A stretch of DNA of 64,000 nucleotides, taken from a virus. The translations under genes and the position numbers were made by a program. Positions 4,774-56,104 of the stretch are shown one piece after another. How positions within the stretch are numbered: position 1 is the first letter of the stretch; the number at the start of each line of letters is the position of its first letter. The notes beneath the pieces are model-generated. The model was not told the DNA's origin. It worked only from the letters and a program-made list of their open reading frames with translations, and made no database searches. The DNA lies in the IMG/VR virus record IMGVR_UViG_3300017770_000001, positions 1-64,000 of that record. The stretch is one strand, 5' to 3'.

Positions 4774-4802
4774 ATTATATAATAATCTAGACGTGTTGTC
4801 TA
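4774..4802 (-). promoter_or_regulatory. sigma70-like promoter of the que operon
   Basis: TAGACA, 17-bp spacer, TATAAT on the minus strand. The -10 ends 6 nt before the queD ATG, so the predicted transcription start is at or next to the A of the start codon and no Shine-Dalgarno is possible. Confidence 0.7.
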
Positions 4803-17745: not shown

Positions 17746-18064
17746 TTTTCACTTTCTCCATTATAATTTCACGGTCATGCACATGCAACATAAACAAAGC
17801 ATAGTGCATAACCTTTAAAATGTCTGCTCTGTTTTTTCCGTTTTTCTTACCGTATCTTTGTGCATACTTGAGTATGTTTCCGACACAGAATCCTTCACCA
17901 TGACCACTGTCTATAATAAACTCAGTAGATTGATACTTGTTCAAACTATAGTGTTGGTCATAAGTTTTGTCAATGTACTTGGAGAACTCATTTAAGAGTT
18001 CTCCCTCATTGTACTTGTAGTCTATATTTTTCATAGGTACTGACATTGTACTATTAAACTTCAT
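17732..18064 (-). CDS. DUF3310-type protein (110 aa)
   Basis: Start taken at the ATG at 18064 (MKFNSTMSVP), which overlaps the AAA+ gene by 11 nt; the frame is open further upstream. The core STEFIIDSGHGEGFCVGNILKYAQRYGKK with NRADILKVMHYALFML is the DUF3310 pattern seen in many phages. Proposed roles of the family are unproven. It precedes gp45 in the replication block. Confidence 0.75.
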   Translation of the reverse strand: MKFNSTMSVPMKNIDYKYNEGELLNEFSKYIDKTYDQHYSLNKYQSTEFIIDSGHGEGFCVGNILKYAQRYGKKNGKNRADILKVMHYALFMLHVHDREIIMEKVKNEVI

Positions 18065-19289
18065 TTGAGTCAATAGGGTTTTCGTAATCATCATCACCCA
18101 TGCTGACACCTGCGTCAACCTTAGTGTAGAGGTCAAGGAAACTATCTCTAGTTTCTTCATCGAACCTTGAAATACATAGTTGGATTGACTTCATTCTGTC
18201 ACCAAACATTTTCCATGCATTGACAATGTGAACCAACCTTCTTGTAGTAATGACATCATCGATTGCACCTTCATAGAAAGTCTTTCTGATAACTGATGCC
18301 CAGTCAACAAGATTCTCAACGAACTCCTTGTCAACCTCATGACCATTGAGAGCCATTTCTTTCTCAACGATTTTTCTCTCAGTAACTAATGGTGGGTATT
18401 CCTGTTGCATAGTAATTGCAAACCTTTCCAACATTGCTTCGTTCATCAACTGAGTCCCGATGAATTTACCATCGTCTGACCCTTGACCTTTAGTGTTTGC
18501 AGTACCGATGATAGTGAACCCTTCTTTAGGTGTCACGTACTCACCAGTCTTCTTGATAAGGTATCCTTTACCTTCAAGAACTGACTGTAGACACATCAAC
18601 TTGTTAGAACCCAAATCAACTTCGTCTAGAAGAAGGACTGCACCTTTTCTCATTGCTTTGAGGACAGGGCCTTCTCTGAACATTAAGTCCCCACCTTTGA
18701 GAGTGTGTCCACCCATCAAATCATCTTCATCAGTCTCGATGGTGACGTTGACTCTGTAACACTCTCTCTTGAGTTGAGCACAAACTTGTTCGACCATCAG
18801 TGTCTTCCCGTTACCACTTAGACCAGTGACAAAGACAGGGAAGAAGATTTTAGACTTGATGATACTTTTGACATCTTTGAAATGGCCAAAAGGAACATAG
18901 TTGCTCATCTTCTCGGGGATAACTTTTACACTATCCTCAATGATATTCATTGAAGATGCTTCAGTTGCAACTGCAACTGGTGAATTAAATCCTACGTTAG
19001 TCTGACTAGGTTTAGTCATTTTGACTGTGGACACTGGAATAGAACTTCCTGTGTAACCACCAACTACTGCCTGTAAATTAAAGACACCATTGTCTCTAAA
19101 GTTGTACCTTGCAGACTTTACCCAGTAAGGTACATGTCCAAGGTTCTTCAAGTCCTCTGCAGTAAACGAGGTCTTGTTGGGGTATGTGCCAGTAAGGGTT
19201 GCTAAGAACTCCTTCCTGTCGGGGGTGAAATGAAACATCTTCCCATTGATGTCAATCGACTCATTTCTATCGTAACTTCTTTTATCCAT
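18054..19289 (-). CDS. cobS: CobS/MoxR-like AAA+ ATPase
   Basis: AAA+ ATPase related to the cobaltochelatase subunit CobS and to MoxR chaperones. Start set at the ATG at 19289 with AAAGGAGA before it. Walker A GLSGNGKT (about 156-163), Walker B LLLDEVD (about 219-225), and a sensor segment IIGTANTKG are present. N-terminal CobS-like region at about 35-65. It pairs with the VWA protein encoded two genes upstream in transcription. No other cobalamin gene is visible, so a remodelling role on a phage or host target fits better than B12 synthesis. Confidence 0.9.
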   Translation of the reverse strand: MDKRSYDRNESIDINGKMFHFTPDRKEFLATLTGTYPNKTSFTAEDLKNLGHVPYWVKSARYNFRDNGVFNLQAVVGGYTGSSIPVSTVKMTKPSQTNVGFNSPVAVATEASSMNIIEDSVKVIPEKMSNYVPFGHFKDVKSIIKSKIFFPVFVTGLSGNGKTLMVEQVCAQLKRECYRVNVTIETDEDDLMGGHTLKGGDLMFREGPVLKAMRKGAVLLLDEVDLGSNKLMCLQSVLEGKGYLIKKTGEYVTPKEGFTIIGTANTKGQGSDDGKFIGTQLMNEAMLERFAITMQQEYPPLVTERKIVEKEMALNGHEVDKEFVENLVDWASVIRKTFYEGAIDDVITTRRLVHIVNAWKMFGDRMKSIQLCISRFDEETRDSFLDLYTKVDAGVSMGDDDYENPIDSNEV

Positions 19290-19324: not shown

Positions 19325-19354
19325 AGTATACAAAAAAGTGTGACCCATTGTCAA
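19325..19354 (-). promoter_or_regulatory. conserved-spacer promoter P1 (before cobS)
   Basis: TTGACA, 18-bp spacer ATGGGTCACACTTTTTTG, TATACT on the minus strand. The spacer is nearly the same as in three other promoters here, which goes beyond sigma70 needs. Confidence 0.75.
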
Positions 19355-19356
19355 CC

Positions 19357-19587
19357 CTATTTCACAGGTTTCATTATTCTTTGTAATTTATCTTCTTTAA
19401 ACTTTCCAGTGTTCACCCAAATCCTAAATGCAAAACACTCTTCAGCTTTGGTTGCACATGTACTTACTTTGTCACACTTGAACTTCTCACAGGGAGATGG
19501 GCCCACGTTTTGAATTGCATCTGCAAAACTCATTGTGGGTGTTGAAGTGTAATACACTGGTGTTAAATCTATTGTGTTAATTCTCAT
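19357..19587 (-). CDS. cysteine-rich conserved small phage protein (76 aa)
   Basis: Four cysteines in CEKFKCDKVSTCATKAEEC could bind zinc or a cluster. The stretch YYTSTPTMSFADAIQNVG is typical of a protein conserved in T4-like marine phages, function unknown. It lies between the cobS-like and VWA genes and overlaps the latter by 4 nt, so it is likely part of the same machine or co-regulated. Confidence 0.72.
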   Translation of the reverse strand: MRINTIDLTPVYYTSTPTMSFADAIQNVGPSPCEKFKCDKVSTCATKAEECFAFRIWVNTGKFKEDKLQRIMKPVK

Positions 19588-21929
19588 GCTATCTCCTGTA
19601 TAAATTGATTCATTAAGTATCTAGAAGTCGACTTGTTCATCTGATTTCTTTTGAATGCAGTGGTCAATTTTGCTCTTGACTCACCTACCATTTCATCTGA
19701 GAGTTCATCATCCCCAGTGACTTCTAAAACTTTTGATTGTGCAACGAACAGTTTACCATATCCGTGACATGGTATAACCGAACCTGTTTTTTTGATATCT
19801 TTCCACTCTTCGTCACACTGTGTGTAAGAATAGTAACCATCATTGATACAACTTTTTAGGTTGTTGAATTCTTGCTTCTTACCTAGAATGAAGTACCCAT
19901 TTACTTTTGTACCTGTCTCTGATTTCATCCAGTCAATTAGATTACATGTTCTTAAGAAGTTACTTTCATTACTGATATCATACTTGTAGGTTCTTCTTGA
20001 AACTGTATCAGTGATATATTTGTCTCTACCATAACCACCTTCGAACTTGAATCCATCGTAGACATGTGAATAACCATCCGTAATGAACGTTGCATTCATG
20101 AGGTCAACACCCCATGCTTTTTGTAACTTGGGTAATGTGTATCTTGCCCAAACAATACTTGCATCTAGAGGTGTTCCACCTAGTCCAAGTTTTCTTGGAG
20201 TCCACCAGTCTAATTCTTTTAGACCTAGGTCACTGCTGTATGGGTCATAGTACTCAAACCCTTCATGGTCAATATCAAACCAATCAATGATTTCATTGTA
20301 TTTCTTTTCGTTTAACCAACCGTATGCAGAGTCAGCTTTCTTTGCATTGTAAATTGCACCGAATACTTTACCTGCTTTTAGGTATTGTGATTTGGACATG
20401 TCACTTGAGAACCACTCAAGTAGTCTGACAGTATCAGTTCTAAACCAACTTCTCTCTTCATCAGTTTCGTTATTGTCGTCACCGTAAACATCTGAGAATG
20501 ATAGAATCTTGAATGGGATGTTAACTTTTTTACAGAACATCATTAGAATGAATGCCTGTTCTAGTAAGTCACATAGTGTATCTGCAATTGAACCACTGTG
20601 GTCAATGAAGACAACGAGACCGTGATTCTTACCTTGAGGTAAGTAAGTCATTCTCTTGAAGATGTCTTCTGAGATTTGATACTTAGAAAGTTTTGTTAGG
20701 TCAATTCTTCCAGTCTTAGAAGACATTGCTCTCTTAGAAAGATATGCAGACTTCTTCATCTCAAATTCTTTTGCCATGTGATTGACAATCTTTTTGTTCT
20801 TTGCTTCTAACTTCTTGAAAGATGATGATGCAAAATTCCAGTATGAATCAGATTTAGATTTGTCTTGATAATCTTTAAGACTTTCATCAATTGACTTTTG
20901 GATATCTTTTTCCATATCATCTACACTGACGATTGCATTCTTTAAAAAGTATTGTAGTTGTTCATCAGTCTTGACATCCATGTTAGTATAGAGTCTGTCG
21001 TTGACTTTCCAGTTCTCTTTGTCAACTTGGAATATTTGTTCGTTATTGTGTGCATTTCTTTCAGTAATAGACTTCCTTGCAGTCGGGGATGCTTTACCAC
21101 CCTCATTACCATCATCTGCATCTTCAAACAGGGGTTCCTGTCCATCATTATCATTGTTTGATATATCGGGTAGGGTATCTTCTGAAGTCTCTTCAGAGGT
21201 CTCTCCGTTCCCTCTAGAGGGGGTTTCTGAGTCACTCTCTTCTTCTACTTCGTCACCATCTCCACCACCACTAGGTGCATTGTTTTCATAGTCTCCGTCT
21301 TCGTTTTCTTCCCAATCGAAGTCGTCTAAATCAGTGATATTAACAATTTCTTCTTCATCACCCTTCTCGTTTTCTGCAGACCAGTCATATAGTTCTTGTG
21401 CAATTGATACAACCTCTTCGAAGGTTTTTGCATTGAAAGACCTGTCATAGAAGTCTTGTTCTATATCATTTAGAACAACGTTTGAACTCATACCTACTTT
21501 AGAATAGAGATTGATTCTATCAATTGCAGATAGTTCTTCTAGATTCTTACCACTGATACCAAAGAAATCTTTCTGCATCAACTCATCGTATGCTTTGAAG
21601 AAAGACTTCCTCAAGCCTGGGAACTTACTCTTAATCATCTTCTCAATTCTGATATCCTCAATCACATTGAGATAGTCTTTAAGAACTCTATTGTCAATAA
21701 GTGTAGAGTGTAACCCCTCATATGGAGTGTGCAATGCATGAGACACTTCGTGACCCATGAATAAATCATACAACTCTGCAGATATATCCTCTTTAAATAT
21801 AGGACAAGTAAGTACCCTGTTCTTAACATCGAATGATGCAGTAGGTACCTTCTTGTGTTGGATTGATATGTTCTCTGATGCCATTAGTTTTGCAAGAGAG
21901 TCTTTTTGGTTTCTTAGTAAATTTGTCAT
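19584..21929 (-). CDS. cobT: CobT-like protein with metallopeptidase-type HExxH and VWA domain
   Basis: Start set at the ATG at 21929 (MTNLLRNQKD), 6 nt after a TATACT box; the longer frame runs into the promoter. Residues 60-64 read HEVSH within MGHEVSHALHTP, a zinc-peptidase-like motif. An acidic low-complexity linker covers about 190-285. A VWA domain begins near 435 with the metal-ion-dependent adhesion site DHSGS (443-447). CobT and other VWA partners of MoxR ATPases have this layout. Probably a substrate adaptor for the CobS-like ATPase. Confidence 0.87.
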   Translation of the reverse strand: MTNLLRNQKDSLAKLMASENISIQHKKVPTASFDVKNRVLTCPIFKEDISAELYDLFMGHEVSHALHTPYEGLHSTLIDNRVLKDYLNVIEDIRIEKMIKSKFPGLRKSFFKAYDELMQKDFFGISGKNLEELSAIDRINLYSKVGMSSNVVLNDIEQDFYDRSFNAKTFEEVVSIAQELYDWSAENEKGDEEEIVNITDLDDFDWEENEDGDYENNAPSGGGDGDEVEEESDSETPSRGNGETSEETSEDTLPDISNNDNDGQEPLFEDADDGNEGGKASPTARKSITERNAHNNEQIFQVDKENWKVNDRLYTNMDVKTDEQLQYFLKNAIVSVDDMEKDIQKSIDESLKDYQDKSKSDSYWNFASSSFKKLEAKNKKIVNHMAKEFEMKKSAYLSKRAMSSKTGRIDLTKLSKYQISEDIFKRMTYLPQGKNHGLVVFIDHSGSIADTLCDLLEQAFILMMFCKKVNIPFKILSFSDVYGDDNNETDEERSWFRTDTVRLLEWFSSDMSKSQYLKAGKVFGAIYNAKKADSAYGWLNEKKYNEIIDWFDIDHEGFEYYDPYSSDLGLKELDWWTPRKLGLGGTPLDASIVWARYTLPKLQKAWGVDLMNATFITDGYSHVYDGFKFEGGYGRDKYITDTVSRRTYKYDISNESNFLRTCNLIDWMKSETGTKVNGYFILGKKQEFNNLKSCINDGYYSYTQCDEEWKDIKKTGSVIPCHGYGKLFVAQSKVLEVTGDDELSDEMVGESRAKLTTAFKRNQMNKSTSRYLMNQFIQEIA

Positions 21930-21935
21930 GTTTAT

Positions 21936-21965
21936 AGTATACAAAAAAGTGAGACCCATTGTCAA
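21936..21965 (-). promoter_or_regulatory. conserved-spacer promoter P2 (before the CobT-like gene)
   Basis: TTGACA, 18-bp spacer ATGGGTCTCACTTTTTTG, TATACT, then 6 nt to the ATG at 21929. Predicted leaderless transcript. Confidence 0.75.
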
Positions 21966-22147
21966 CTTTTTATTTGTACGAACTTCCTCCTTGCTTTTGA
22001 AAATTGTTTCATAGGGGATTTAAAAATTATCTCTTCTTTAGTTCCACTCTTGATGTACCCTACAAGTTCAGTTTTTTTATTTACAATGTAGGTGTGGTTA
22101 GAAACATTACTATCCCATTCTGTTATTTCTTTAAGATAAGTATTCAT
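21962..22147 (-). CDS. hypothetical protein (61 aa)
   Basis: Small basic protein, MNTYLKEITEWDSNVSNHTY, with the ending SKARRKFVQIK. Not recognised. It begins on the last base of the preceding gene and its stop overlaps promoter P2, so it ends that short operon. Confidence 0.6.
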   Translation of the reverse strand: MNTYLKEITEWDSNVSNHTYIVNKKTELVGYIKSGTKEEIIFKSPMKQFSKARRKFVQIKS

Positions 22148-22446
22148 TATGCAACCAACCTAGTGTATGGTTCATAACAACCACTGACACCAATTGCAGA
22201 GTTATCACATCCTCTACCGTCCATCCATATCTCTAGGTTGATATATTCATAACATTCTGAAGAGAATGTCTGTCCTATAAACGTAGTGTCTAAATTAGTC
22301 TCATAGACATTCTTACCCATTCTACTGATGGGTTTTACTGAGATTTCATGGGGTGTAACCTCTGTGATTATTGCAGTAGTTGTTACACCATTTAAAGTAT
22401 ATTGACAGGTATCTAACCCAGTTTCAATGTAATCCATATCTAACAT
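22147..22446 (-). CDS. hypothetical protein (99 aa)
   Basis: Start at the ATG at 22446, which overlaps the stop of the gene before it (TAATG) and has GAGG upstream. Several cysteines (YCQ-type Cys14 region, CYEY, GCDN, GCYEP) suggest metal or disulfide use, but no family is recognised. Beta-rich by appearance. Confidence 0.6.
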   Translation of the reverse strand: MLDMDYIETGLDTCQYTLNGVTTTAIITEVTPHEISVKPISRMGKNVYETNLDTTFIGQTFSSECYEYINLEIWMDGRGCDNSAIGVSGCYEPYTRLVA

Positions 22447-22643
22447 TAAATGCACCTCGCTTCATATCTAAGTTCAAAAAGTTTTGCAATGAACCCGTGT
22501 TCACCACCCTCAGGGTTTGGTAATTTCTCAATACCAAATTCGTTTTGAATTGCAAAGATTACATTCCAAATATCTTTATCTGCCATATCATAGATATCTG
22601 AAAGAATCTCTTCTTTAATGTTGTCGTTGTGAATGTTTGACAT
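22446..22643 (-). CDS. hypothetical protein (65 aa)
   Basis: Start at the ATG at 22643 (MSNIHNDNIKEEIL), with AAAGGAGA before it; the longer frame runs into promoter P3. Helical, acidic, no known domain. First gene behind P3, coupled to the two genes after it. Confidence 0.62.
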   Translation of the reverse strand: MSNIHNDNIKEEILSDIYDMADKDIWNVIFAIQNEFGIEKLPNPEGGEHGFIAKLFELRYEARCI

Positions 22644-22670
22644 TTTATCTCCTTTCTTTATTACTCTTAT

Positions 22671-22700
22671 AGTATACAAAAAAGTGAGACCCATTGTCAA
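22671..22700 (-). promoter_or_regulatory. conserved-spacer promoter P3
   Basis: TTGACA, 18-bp spacer identical to P2 (ATGGGTCTCACTTTTTTG), TATACT. P2 and P3 share more than 30 bp, showing duplication of the whole element. Confidence 0.75.
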
Positions 22701-22703
22701 GTT

Positions 22704-23135
22704 TTAGTTATGCCAAAAAGTTTCATACACCCAATCTTCTTTTCGGTATGCTTCTCGTTCCCATGGGGTTCTTGAATATGGTACACCCTCATAATCTTTG
22801 GTCTTCCATCTAAAGTTTGTAGGACTGAGTTGTCCTAACAGAAATTGTTTTGCATGTATCAACTCATGTGCAAGGTTGAGCATCATATAATCTAAGTCAA
22901 AATCAATCTCAGATGTACCTCTTGCAAGTTCTATATCAATGTGGTTCTTACCACCACTACAGAATCCATAACATTCATTATCTAATAGGTTGTGAATATA
23001 GATATCCACATCGACTATTCTTCTCATTCTAGGACAATAATGATGTATTACATTCTTGACATATTTTTCAATACGAGATTTTTGTGCAATTCTCCCATGA
23101 AAATCAATCAATATGTTCTTTTTAAAGTCCTTCAT
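22704..23135 (-). CDS. SprT-like zinc metallopeptidase
   Basis: A 143-residue protein with LNLAHELIHAKQFLLG; His90, Glu91 and His94 form the HExxH site. The context (helix before, Gly-rich region, WERxA-like PWEREAYRKED later) fits SprT/WLM-type peptidases, some of which cut DNA-protein crosslinks. The start lies 7 nt after the -10 of P4, so again no leader. Substrate unknown. Confidence 0.75.
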   Translation of the reverse strand: MKDFKKNILIDFHGRIAQKSRIEKYVKNVIHHYCPRMRRIVDVDIYIHNLLDNECYGFCSGGKNHIDIELARGTSEIDFDLDYMMLNLAHELIHAKQFLLGQLSPTNFRWKTKDYEGVPYSRTPWEREAYRKEDWVYETFWHN

Positions 23136-23142
23136 GGTTTGT

Positions 23143-23172
23143 ATATTAACAAAAAGTGTGACCCACTGTCAA
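23143..23172 (-). promoter_or_regulatory. conserved-spacer promoter P4 (before the SprT-like gene)
   Basis: TTGACA, 18-bp spacer GTGGGTCACACTTTTTGT, -10 TAATAT, then 7 nt to the ATG at 23135. It sits just downstream of the tRNA genes. Confidence 0.68.
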
Positions 23173-23180
23173 CACGAAAG

Positions 23181-23270
23181 TGGCGGAAGATGAAGGATTC
23201 GAACCTTCGATACCGATAAAGGTATGCTGGTTTTCAAGACCAGTGCATTCAACCACTCTGCCAATCTTCC
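23181..23270 (-). tRNA. tRNA-Ser (anticodon UGA)
   Basis: A 90-nt tRNA with acceptor GGAAGAT/ATCTTCC, discriminator G and encoded CCA. The anticodon stem CTGGT/ACCAG carries loop CTTGAAA, so the anticodon is TGA. A long variable arm, as required for serine, is present. The T-arm GGTTCGAATCC is normal. It reads UCA and UCN codons, common in this AT-rich genome. Confidence 0.95.
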
Positions 23271-34148: not shown

Positions 34149-34178
34149 TTGACAATGTACCTAACTTTTTGGTATACT
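34149..34178 (+). promoter_or_regulatory. plus-strand promoter of the conserved-spacer family
   Basis: TTGACA, 18-bp spacer ATGTACCTAACTTTTTGG, TATACT on the plus strand. The spacer keeps the ACTTTTT core of P1-P4. It is the only clear plus-strand promoter in the window and points into the gene-free region. Confidence 0.65.
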
Positions 34179-34184
34179 AGTAAA

Positions 34185-34505
34185 GTAGGAAATCGAGACG
34201 GAAGTAAGTTGGTTGTGAGAGGTTGTTCCGTATAGAAAAGGTGTTCACACTGTTAAAGTCAATTAAGACGTGGCATATAATCGTGAGGTGTGGATAGAAT
34301 CCGAACAGAGAAGTACTTGAAATTTTTGACGAATTGGGAAAGTATGGTAAACGAATTTCTTTATGGTCACTACCTATTGACCTAGATAAAATTGGGGTAA
34401 GGCCTCACTAGAAGGACACGGTGTAAAGAATTGGGTTAATCCCCAAGACATTGAACGATTAGAGTCACTAAACAAAAAAAAAGGACTCCGAAGAGTCCTT
34501 TTAAA
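34185..34505 (+). ncRNA. candidate plus-strand non-coding RNA (or decayed plus-strand gene)
   Basis: About 320 nt bounded by a plus-strand promoter and a terminator hairpin, with no long ORF on either strand. On the plus strand, broken frames such as EVLEIFDELGKYGKRISLWS suggest either a degraded gene or chance. It runs against the rest of the genome. A small regulatory RNA is the simplest reading if the promoter is active. Confidence 0.45.
34474..34504. terminator. bidirectional terminator after gp23 and the plus-strand unit
   Basis: AAGGACTC CGAA GAGTCCTT hairpin. On the minus strand it is followed by nine T (end of the gp23 transcript); on the plus strand by TTTT (end of the candidate RNA). 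Confidence 0.88.
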
Positions 34506-51955: not shown

Positions 51956-54900
51956 TTAAGAGGATATTGGTTGTGCAGGCCAAGACGTTGTACCATCCCA
52001 TTTCTGAACTGTATTTCTATACGGTTGTTGATATGCATATGGTTGTATACCAACTGTAACCTTCTGACGGGATGACTGTGCTGGTCTCTGTCTTGAAACT
52101 CTTTGCAATACCTGTACCCTAGTAGGTCTCTGTCTTGAAACTCTCTGCAATACCTGTGTTCTAGCAGGTCTTTGTCTAGTTACATTCTGTAGAACCTGAA
52201 CTCTTGCTGGTCTTTGTCTAGACTCAATATTATTATATTGATAACCCTGTTGCACTGGTCTTCTTCTAGACTCAATATTATTATATTGATAACCCTGTTG
52301 CACTGGTCTTTGTCTGTTTTCAGTATTATTATACTGGTAACCTTGTTGCACTGGTCTCTGTCTATTTTCAGTATTATTATATTGATAATTCTGTTGTGTT
52401 GGACGTTGTCTAGTTACAATATTATTGTACTGGTAACTTTGCTGTGCTGGTCTTCTTCTAGTTTCTTGTATATTTACCTGAACTCTAGCAGGTCTTTGTC
52501 TAGAAACACGTTGCAACTGTTGTACTCTTGCTGGTCTTCTTCTAGTCTCAACATTATTATACTGGTAACCTTGTTGTACAGGACGTTGTCTAGTCTCAAT
52601 ATTATTATACTGATAACCTTGTTGTACTGGTCTCTGTCTGTTCTCAGTACTATTATACTGATAACTCTGTTGAACAGGTCTTCTTCTAGGAGAAGGTTGG
52701 TTCACCTGTACTCTAGTTGGTCTTCTTCTAGTCTCAGTATTATTATATTGATAACCCTGTTGCACTGGTCTTCTTCTAGACTCAATATTATTATATTGAT
52801 AACCTTGTTGTACAGGACGTTGTCTAGTTACAATATTATTGTACTGGTAACTTTGTTGTACTGGTCTTCTTCTTGTTTCTTGAATGTTAACCTGTACTCT
52901 TGCTGGTCTTTGTCTAGAGACACGTTGCAACTGTTGTACTCTTGTTGGTCTACGTCTTGATACACGTTGTAAAGCTTGTACTCTTGCTGGTCTCTGTCTT
53001 GACACCCTCTGTAATGTTTGTACTCTAGTTGGTCTTCTTCTAGGTACCTGATTATGATACTGATAACTTTGTTGTACAGGTCTACGTCTTGGTATTCTAT
53101 TATGATAAGTATACGTCTGTTGAACTGGTCTTCTTCTAGATTCAGTATTATTGTACTGATAAGACGATTGCACTGGTCTTCTTCTAGTCTCAGTATTATT
53201 GTACTGATAAGATTGTTGCACTGGTCTACGTCTCGGTATTCTATTATGATAGGTATACGTCTGTTGTACTGGTCTTCTTCTAGGAGTAGGTTGGTTGACT
53301 CGATAGTCTGACCTAGCAGGTCTTCTCCTAGTCTCAGTATTATTGTACTGGTAACTTTGTTGTACTGGTCTTCTTCTAGACTCTTGATTGTTGTACTGGT
53401 AACTTTGTTGTACAGGTCTACGTCTTGGTACCTGATTATGATAAGTGTACGCTTGTTGCACAGGTCTTCTTCTAGGTACCTGATTATGATAAGTGTATGC
53501 CTGTTGTACTGGTCTTCTTCTAGGTACCCTATTATGATAAGTGTACGGTTGTTGTGTTGGTCTACGTCTTTGTACCCTATTATGATAAGTGTACGGTTGG
53601 TTCTGTTGACCAGGCTGTTGCATCTCGTTCATCTGACCTTGAGGCCATGTCACACCAGCACTATTACTGAAAGTTACTTGGTGAACATGAGACAAATCTC
53701 TACTTCTAACGAATACATCACCTTTGTTTCTGACAAATAGTGGGAATCCTCCACCTCCACCGCCGGGTGATTGTGACTGCATCTGACCATCTTGTGACCA
53801 TTTAAATGTTGCAGTCTGTCCACTCGTTATTTTTGCACCATATTGAGAATTAGTTGGTGCTTGTCCTGTAATAGGTATTGAACCTTGTCTCTGTGGGTTA
53901 GGTATACTTTGAACAGATTGAGCAGCTGGCCCTGCAACGAAATCAGCACCAAATTCCATGTTCGCACCAACAAATCTTAACACACCCTGCCACTGTCTTT
54001 GTCCACCAAAGTAACTTCTATAGTGCCAACTCTTCGGTGATGTTGATTGGTTTTGTGGGCCACTACCAGTAAAGAATGGTGATTGTGTACCTGACATTTG
54101 TAACGAAGGCCCTCTGAACATCATGTTTCCTCTAAAGGAATCTCTTTCATGTCCTTTTCCATCAGGTCTTCCTGCAAAACCAAATGGACTTGCAGTACCT
54201 GTATTCTGAGCATTCATTGGGAAACCCGAGAACTCAAAAGATGGTATATAGGAAGTTCTTTGTCCGTATGGAGTTTCTACCTTAATAACAGATGTATCAC
54301 CACCACCACCATAGATATTTCCATAATGGATGTAAGCTGTGTGTGCGCTATTCCTTACTGTAGTCTGTCTTGTCCTAGATGTAGGTTGGTTAAACTGGTA
54401 TGTTTGTTGTACAGGTCTTCTTCTAGGTGTAGGTTGGTTAAACTGATAAGACTGTTGTGTTGGTCTACGTCTTGGCTCTTGATTATTGTACTGATAAGAC
54501 TGTTGAACTGGTCTACGTCTTGACTCTTGATTATTGTACTGATAAGACTGTTGAACTGGTCTACGTCTTGGAACCTGATTATGATAAGTGTATGCTTGTT
54601 GCACAGGTCTACGTCTTGGTACCTGATTGTGATAACTATAAGGTTGTTGGTAACTATACCTAGCTTGAAGTCTATTATGATACGTATAAGACTGTTGTGC
54701 TGGTCTACGTCTTGTCTCTTGATTATTGTACTGGTAACTTTGTTGTACAGGTCTACGTCTTGGTACCTGATTATGATAGGTATACGTCTGTTGTACAGGT
54801 CTTCTTCTAGGTACCTGATTATGATACTGGTATACCTGTTGTACTGGTCTTCTTCTAGACTCTTGATTGTTGTACTGGTAACTTTGTTGTACAGGTCTTC

Positions 54901-56104
54901 TTCTTGATTCAGTATTGTTGTACTGGTAATTCTGTTGTGTACTTACCTGTACTCTATTATGGTATTGGTATGATTGTTGTACACTAGTCTGAACCCTATT
55001 ATGATACTGGTAACTCTGTTGAGTAGAAGCTTGAACTCTGTTATGATATTGATAAGTCTGTTGAGTTGATGCTTGTCCTCTATTATGATAAGTATACCCT
55101 TGTTGTACTGGTCTTCTTCTAGGTACTCTATTATGGTACTGATACGACTGTTGAACAGGTCTTCTTCTCTGCACCCTATTGTGGTACTGGTATGCCTGTT
55201 GGACTGGTCTTCTTCTAGGTACCCTATTGTGATAAGTGTATGCCTGTTGAGTACTTGTTTGTATCCTATTGTGATAAGTGTATGCCTGTTGTACTGGTCT
55301 ACGTCTTGGTATTCTATGATGATAGGTATACGTCTGTTGAACAGGTCTTCTTCTTTGTACTCTATTATGGTACTGATACGACTGTTGTACAGGTCTTCTT
55401 CTAGGTACCCTATTATGATAAGTGTAAGGTTGTTGAGTACTTGTTTGAACTCTGTTATGATACTGGTAAGTCTGTTGGGTAGAAGCTTGTCCTCTATTGT
55501 GATAAGTATAACCCTGTTGTACTACACGTTGTCTACCAACTCTATTATGGTATTGATATGATTGTTGTGTAGGTCTACGTCTTGGTACCTGATTATGATA
55601 GACGTACGTCTGTTGTACTGGTCTACGTCTTGGTACCTGATTGTGATAACTATAAGTCTGTTGTACTGGTCTACGTCTAGGTACTCTATTATGATAGGTA
55701 TATGCTTGTTGTACTGGTCTTCTTCTTTGTACTCTATTATGATAGGTATATGTCTGTTGAGTATTTTGTTGAACACGGTTGTGATAAGTGTAATCTTGTT
55801 GAACACTTGTTTGAACCCTGTTATGATACTGATATGACTGTTGTGTAGATGCCTGTACCCTATTATGATACTGATACGACTGTTGCACAGTGAATTGATA
55901 AGATTGTTGGAAGTTGTAAGGTCTTGTCCCAACTGCTGGTCTTGTTGCAACTACTTGAGCTGGCATTTGTCCTGATGACTTTACCCACCCAGTAGGTGTC
56001 TTTGAATAGATAGAATCTACTGCCGACCATTCAGTTGGAGATGTTTTTACCCAGCTTCCTGTTGTGTTTACCCACCCCGTAGGGTTCTTTATTCGTTGCG
56101 CCAT
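51956..56104 (-). CDS. giant Arg/Tyr/Gln-rich repeat protein (1,382 aa), virion adhesin candidate
   Basis: N-terminal cap with GWVNTTGSWVKTSPTEW, then two repeat arrays around a unique core (about 570-830, Gly/Ser-rich, with SFEFSGFPMNAQNTG and GGGGGGFPLFVRNKGD). Repeat units of 14-16 residues are of the type RRRPVQQTYTYHNRVP, QASTQQSYQYHNRV, and SRQRPARVQVLQRV, roughly 70 in all. Strongly basic and aromatic. Between fibre genes, it is likely a virion structural or adhesive protein. Related Tyr/Asn/Gln repeats occur in marine phage structural proteins; exact homology is not claimed. Confidence 0.75.
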   Translation of the reverse strand: MAQRIKNPTGWVNTTGSWVKTSPTEWSAVDSIYSKTPTGWVKSSGQMPAQVVATRPAVGTRPYNFQQSYQFTVQQSYQYHNRVQASTQQSYQYHNRVQTSVQQDYTYHNRVQQNTQQTYTYHNRVQRRRPVQQAYTYHNRVPRRRPVQQTYSYHNQVPRRRPVQQTYVYHNQVPRRRPTQQSYQYHNRVGRQRVVQQGYTYHNRGQASTQQTYQYHNRVQTSTQQPYTYHNRVPRRRPVQQSYQYHNRVQRRRPVQQTYTYHHRIPRRRPVQQAYTYHNRIQTSTQQAYTYHNRVPRRRPVQQAYQYHNRVQRRRPVQQSYQYHNRVPRRRPVQQGYTYHNRGQASTQQTYQYHNRVQASTQQSYQYHNRVQTSVQQSYQYHNRVQVSTQQNYQYNNTESRRRPVQQSYQYNNQESRRRPVQQVYQYHNQVPRRRPVQQTYTYHNQVPRRRPVQQSYQYNNQETRRRPAQQSYTYHNRLQARYSYQQPYSYHNQVPRRRPVQQAYTYHNQVPRRRPVQQSYQYNNQESRRRPVQQSYQYNNQEPRRRPTQQSYQFNQPTPRRRPVQQTYQFNQPTSRTRQTTVRNSAHTAYIHYGNIYGGGGDTSVIKVETPYGQRTSYIPSFEFSGFPMNAQNTGTASPFGFAGRPDGKGHERDSFRGNMMFRGPSLQMSGTQSPFFTGSGPQNQSTSPKSWHYRSYFGGQRQWQGVLRFVGANMEFGADFVAGPAAQSVQSIPNPQRQGSIPITGQAPTNSQYGAKITSGQTATFKWSQDGQMQSQSPGGGGGGFPLFVRNKGDVFVRSRDLSHVHQVTFSNSAGVTWPQGQMNEMQQPGQQNQPYTYHNRVQRRRPTQQPYTYHNRVPRRRPVQQAYTYHNQVPRRRPVQQAYTYHNQVPRRRPVQQSYQYNNQESRRRPVQQSYQYNNTETRRRPARSDYRVNQPTPRRRPVQQTYTYHNRIPRRRPVQQSYQYNNTETRRRPVQSSYQYNNTESRRRPVQQTYTYHNRIPRRRPVQQSYQYHNQVPRRRPTRVQTLQRVSRQRPARVQALQRVSRRRPTRVQQLQRVSRQRPARVQVNIQETRRRPVQQSYQYNNIVTRQRPVQQGYQYNNIESRRRPVQQGYQYNNTETRRRPTRVQVNQPSPRRRPVQQSYQYNSTENRQRPVQQGYQYNNIETRQRPVQQGYQYNNVETRRRPARVQQLQRVSRQRPARVQVNIQETRRRPAQQSYQYNNIVTRQRPTQQNYQYNNTENRQRPVQQGYQYNNTENRQRPVQQGYQYNNIESRRRPVQQGYQYNNIESRQRPARVQVLQNVTRQRPARTQVLQRVSRQRPTRVQVLQRVSRQRPAQSSRQKVTVGIQPYAYQQPYRNTVQKWDGTTSWPAQPISS
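52080..55930. repeat. coding tandem repeats of 42-48 bp
   Basis: Two arrays (about 52080-53620 and 54380-55930) encode the 14-16-residue units. The DNA copies differ at many synonymous sites (AGAAGAAGACC against AGACGTAGACC) while the amino acids stay the same, and the opposite strand stays open by chance of composition. Confidence 0.85.

Follow-up and report, generated by a model that had tools for sequence, protein, structure and literature searches.

The early promoters of T4-like phages are sigma70-like and carry an A-rich stretch at −40 to −44, with details that differ from phage to phage (PMC1524935; PMC2988021). In T4, RB49, RB43, RB69, 44RR and Aeh1 they precede prereplicative genes and small novel ORFs, and the extra conserved letters are phage-specific. 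T4-like phages are also known to carry promoter-terminator composites, according to work cited in PMC4503421; the PeSL cassettes (Arbiol 2010; Comeau 2014), in so far as PMC4503421 outlines them, are repeated strong early promoters, some of which could form a stem-loop or terminator, and their copies bear signs of exchange with one another. By capsid protein, the nearest sequenced phages to the virus described here are Mosig and HTVC008M of Pelagibacter and Melnitz of Methylophilales (63–65% identical). The early promoters of Melnitz have been predicted with a generic tool only (PMC9004378). No match was found for the phage tRNA-Ser, which was considered as a clue to the host.

The window analysed was a stretch of 64,000 nucleotides from a virus record of 135,072 bp, the remaining stretches of which were also searched. 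Its promoters and associated features are given in Table 1. The original prediction placed four promoters (P1–P4) in this window as members of a family with a constant 18-bp spacer, and all four were confirmed at their positions on the minus strand, each with TTGACA and a spacer of 18 bp; the −10 box is TATACT in P1–P3 and TAATAT in P4. The family was also borne out by hexamer pairs across the genome and by the relatives of the CobS-like gene described below. It should be noted that P4 begins 8 bp behind a tRNA-Ser gene on the same strand (23181–23270). Elsewhere in the window, an identical 30-bp stretch occurs twice, 510 bp apart, within the long gene at 51956–56104 (52238–52267 and 52748–52777, plus strand).

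Table 1. Coordinates in the window of the promoters, their targets and the features near the fifth copy
Feature	Position	Strand	Sequence or evidence	Remark
P1	19325..19354	−	TTGACA-ATGGGTCACACTTTTTTG-TATACT	promoter of CobS-like gene
P2	21936..21965	−	TTGACA-ATGGGTCTCACTTTTTTG-TATACT	promoter of CobT-like gene; predicted start is the ATG
P3	22671..22700	−	30 bp identical to P2	promoter of 65-aa protein gene, AGGAG leader
P4	23143..23172	−	TTGACA-GTGGGTCACACTTTTTGT-TAATAT	promoter of SprT-like gene; predicted start is the ATG
Fifth copy	34149..34178	+	TTGACA-ATGTACCTAACTTTTTGG-TATACT	promoter of non-coding RNA
CobS-like AAA+ ATPase gene	18054..19289	−	PF07728 and phrog_249	target of P1
CobT-like protein gene	19584..21929	−	phrog_459; translation	target of P2
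65-aa protein gene	22446..22643	−	ORF	target of P3; function unknown
SprT-like protein gene	22704..23135	−	HELIH motif (HExxH)	target of P4
Structured non-coding RNA, ~290 nt	34185..34475	+		start predicted 7 nt past −10; 3' end uncertain
Terminator-like hairpin	34480..34503		AAAGGACTC-CGAA-GAGTCCTTT; sequence and fold

A chance origin of this family was ruled out by shuffle counts and by the spacing of hexamer pairs. The string TTGACANNGGGTCNCACTTTTT, which joins the −35 box to the spacer, occurs four times without mismatch in the window, against an expectation of 0.04 in dinucleotide shuffles even with up to three mismatches allowed. For GGGTCnCACTTTTT alone at up to three mismatches no excess over chance was seen in the window (22 found, 20.9 expected), so that it is the exact copies that carry weight. 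Perfect pairs of TTGACA with TATACT, TATAAT or TATTAT were then counted in the whole 135-kb genome at nine spacer lengths (14–22 bp). Thirteen pairs were detected, compared with about 2.9 expected under a first-order Markov model for the nine lengths together, and the spacer was 18 bp in 13 of 13. The genome-wide search for more copies, which the original prediction had suggested, found them beyond the window at 103026, 103387 and 113995 (all minus strand), together with looser copies at 113895, 111474, 113249 and 122602 (minus). The T-tract CACTTTTT occurs ten times in the genome, seven of them in these promoters at the same position. Behind the copy at 113249 lies a stretch of about 400 nt without an ORF on the same strand (112811–113217; L058:8811–9217, minus), which folds well (z about −2) and for which no match was found among the collected related loci. 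A second promoter type was also observed in the window at 4802, 6258 and 29403 and in the genome at 101023 and 103676 (all minus); it is CAAAAA-rich, with ACCTC or ACCCC directly before T[AT]GAC or TTTACA and a spacer mostly of 17–18 bp.

The expected targets, namely a CobS/CobT pair and a SprT-like protease, were recovered: an AAA+ ATPase of the CobS type, a VWA protein resembling CobT and a SprT-like protein with HExxH. The CobT-like translation contains HEVSH near its N-terminus and DHSGS, a VWA-type MIDAS, further on. The PHROG matches of the SprT-like protein are to families of unknown function only; the HTVC008M record includes an annotated SprT-like family protein. The 65-aa protein had no match in Pfam or PHROG.

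Relatives of the CobS-like gene were gathered by CobS protein alone, giving 80 loci (72–100% identity), 77 of them with sufficient upstream DNA. A promoter with exactly 18 bp was present before CobS in 74 of these 77, with all 12 hexamer letters in 71 and TTGACT in three; the remaining three relatives keep TTGACAATGCCCCTCACTTTTTGT and have lost TATACT. Among loci that had not been picked for a promoter, the 18-bp spacer was present in 50 of 54 distinct contexts. TTGACAA, CACTTTTT (−22 to −15) and TATA[CA]T are nearly constant among the CobS relatives. In the 27 distinct CobS promoters that passed a filter requiring the hexamers and the T run, TTGAC at −36 to −32, A at −30 and CACTTTTT are invariant, the T run itself being part of the filter. 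The upstream region is A-rich: all 27 have A at −42, and 24 of the 27 have it at −43. Positions −27 to −23 are highly variable in these 27 yet GC-rich, and across 73 distinct spacers of the clade the G+C content at −28 to −24 is 55–82%, against 36% for the genome. GGGTCn is exchanged for other GC-rich words in the CobS relatives and is thus the local version of a variable word. Conservation of the spacer therefore stands for its 18-bp length and for TTGACAAT and CACTTTTT, and does not extend to GGGTCn; GGGTCnCACTTTTT was ruled out as the conserved core since its first part varies among relatives.

The layout is that of sigma70-type promoters, in which TTGACA and TATAAT-like hexamers lie 16–18 bp apart upstream of genes. 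The layout of the MotA-dependent middle promoters of T4, where the −35 element is replaced by a MotA box near −30, is absent, a perfect TTGACA being found at −36 to −31 in nearly all. The promoters share with the T4-type early promoters the sigma70-like −35 and −10 boxes, the A-rich stretch, a place before prereplicative genes and small novel ORFs, and additional conserved letters that change from one phage to the next. They differ from them in having a rigid 18-bp spacer with CACTTTTT at −22 to −15 and in lacking a general TGn extended −10 as in T4, since G at −14 occurs in 28 of 73 distinct spacers. Melnitz resembles the clade as a relative (capsid 64% identical) in which at least five promoters share the form TTGACA-spacer-TATACT/TATAAT. 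The 18-bp rule is followed by none of Mosig, HTVC008M and Melnitz, and in Melnitz 13 of 16 hexamer pairs are at 17 bp. At five Melnitz positions (MZ577096: 3952, 6198, 33499, 38992 and 67247) the 17-bp spacer is near-palindromic (TTTGTT....AACA.G), operator-like and, unlike that of the clade, without the T-tract.

To compare copies within genomes, pattern searches were run over 100 contigs, and for each phage the CobS promoter (P1) was compared with that of CobT (P2) and with the one before the small P3 gene. The three promoters often carry the same word in one phage and other words elsewhere (CCCCGC, GCCCC, GGGCC, GACCC/T, GGGTC), although this is not universal and some genomes are mixed. With triplets assigned to P1–P3 by hand from spacing and flanks, and most genomes being fragments, word agreement reached z 8.8 (25 genomes) and z 7.1 (16 thinned genomes) against a null in which genomes were shuffled inside each gene class. 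When divided into blocks with the flanks added, agreement was highest at the word (−28 to −23, z 7.2; 7–9 overall), followed by −14/−13 (z 4.1) and −42 to −37 (z 3.2), with no significant excess among P1, P2 and P3 within genomes in the flanks −66 to −43 and −6 to +24. Agreement is thus confined to about −42 to −13. Short recombination is favoured because free letters within the spacer agree too and letters outside do not, and it appears from this similarity that the copies are homogenised within each genome. Duplication of a mobile promoter cassette, as originally proposed, gains support from the agreement of the variable word; no direct exchange event was seen.

The fifth copy fits the family only in part: its hexamers are perfect and its spacer is 18 bp long, but GGGTC is missing and only 13 of the 18 spacer letters are those of P2. 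No ORF was found behind it. It is predicted to drive a conserved, structured RNA (Table 1), which the original prediction had not mentioned; the terminator-like hairpin separates this RNA from the major capsid gene, which converges on it. About 39 contig stretches carry the RNA at 91–99% identity. In the divergent L036 and L039 the identity is 77%, and the RNA lies together with its promoter at a different site, flanked by the SprT-like gene and the P3 gene (L036:9836–10104). The consensus fold has 62 pairs with 97.4% of cells paired. Pairs changed on both sides numbered 17, against 4.3 in shuffles and 0–5 in slid controls, with many of the changed pairs supplied by L036, the most divergent sequence, and the fold derived from the same alignment. 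At the gathering score Rfam matched only two tRNAs and not this RNA, which ruled out a known RNA family. Nothing was detected in Mosig, Melnitz or HTVC008M with a covariance model built on the 3' part of the RNA, and blastn with the RNA found nothing in named phages. The RNA promoters keep TTGACAAT, the 18 bp and TATACT, with words of their own and a less strict T-tract.

Several promoters may also yield leaderless mRNAs, as is suggested by the predicted starts. The first ATG lies 6–8 nt past the −10 box, the distance at which transcripts are expected to begin, in 19 of 66 cases and is otherwise mostly at least 19 nt away. The CobT and SprT-like genes belong to the 6–8 nt class in the window (21929, 23135) and in several relatives. 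The same distance was observed at L016, L019, L026 and L083, before CobT-like, SprT-like and other genes.

It is proposed that these promoters represent a sigma70-type early promoter cassette of a clade of marine T4-like phages which is homogenised by recombination, a reading of the sequence to which a probability of about 0.58 is given. Such a cassette would consist of an A-rich −43/−42, TTGACAAT, a GC-rich word of 5–6 bp, CACTTTTT, two free letters and TATACT, and would provide strong prereplicative promoters transcribed by the host RNA polymerase, the fixed letters probably being kept for promoter strength at the 18-bp spacing. The 30-bp repeats would convert or replace each other, PeSL-like, leaving one word per phage. 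Confined as it is to about −42 to −13, the agreement of P1, P2 and P3 looks as it should if conversion tracts were limited by the 30-bp homology. Recombination between copies has reportedly been proposed for the T4-type PeSL cassettes. Against this reading, GGGTC and its reverse complement GACCC share the same position, at times in one genome, which conversion alone does not explain, and the promoters of the non-coding RNA lack the word of the other promoters. The strict architecture seen across the clade adds a further form to the T4-type early promoters, and the clade promoters are probably a variant of T4-type mobile cassettes, differing from PeSL, as presented in PMC4503421, in that the T-tract is inside the spacer, the −35 box would lie in the loop and a stem is found in a subset only.

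The peak of agreement at the word is also what would be seen if the word were an operator, bound between −35 and −10 by a phage-coded factor whose specificity shifts between lineages, every site in a given phage shifting along, as in heteroimmune lambdoid phages. GGGTC and GACCC would then be one duplex in two orientations, and a separate family of near-palindromic 17-bp spacers, TTTGTTATnATAACATG, occurs in Melnitz. The letters at −14/−13 agree within genomes too, however, the RNA promoter of the same genome has a different word, no candidate factor was found, and no inverted repeat of the kind bound by a dimeric repressor is shared in the spacers of this clade, so that an operator is considered doubtful. 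It is very improbable that the letters reflect promoter strength alone, with host polymerases preferring exact sequences and the agreement arising because different hosts select across whole lineages. Promoter strength and the response to supercoiling do depend on the length, GC content and sequence of the spacer (PMC8695583; PMC2613000), but exact words such as CCCCGC and GGGCC, common to three promoters, go beyond what composition alone would require.

The GC-rich word could instead pair with the flank upstream of −35, the T-tract serving as the U-tract, such that upstream transcription stops at the next unit in a composite promoter-terminator of the kind cited for T4-like phages in PMC4503421. 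Complementarity between the flank −46 to −37 and the spacer exceeds that of swapped flanks (p 0.001–0.04, depending on thinning), with no excess for displaced flanks (p 0.28–0.62), and at 34149, 103387, L017, L244 and L215 a good hairpin was found whose stem runs directly into the T-tract as in an intrinsic terminator. In a stricter homology-thinned test the signal was weaker (p 0.018, displaced-flank controls 0.06–0.13), a stem of at least 5 bp is present in only 16 of 48 thinned promoters, and the stem is not kept in the CobS relatives, where CACTTTTT is. A universal promoter-terminator hairpin was therefore ruled out and this account of the family is quite unlikely, while the signal suggests that some promoter copies may double as terminators.

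It is unlikely, although it would be of consequence, that the word particular to each genome is bound by a rapidly evolving phage regulator, which would control the early genes of these lytic marine T4-like phages; each lineage would then have its own promoter code, resembling the immunity specificity of temperate phages. Few studies have dealt with early transcription in the marine T4-like phages that infect heterotrophs. The promoters described here offer a clear case of short promoter repeats that agree within genomes, along with early mRNAs predicted to be leaderless and a structured RNA, itself conserved, under the same promoter class. They also provide an exact early-promoter signature which is searchable in metagenomes.
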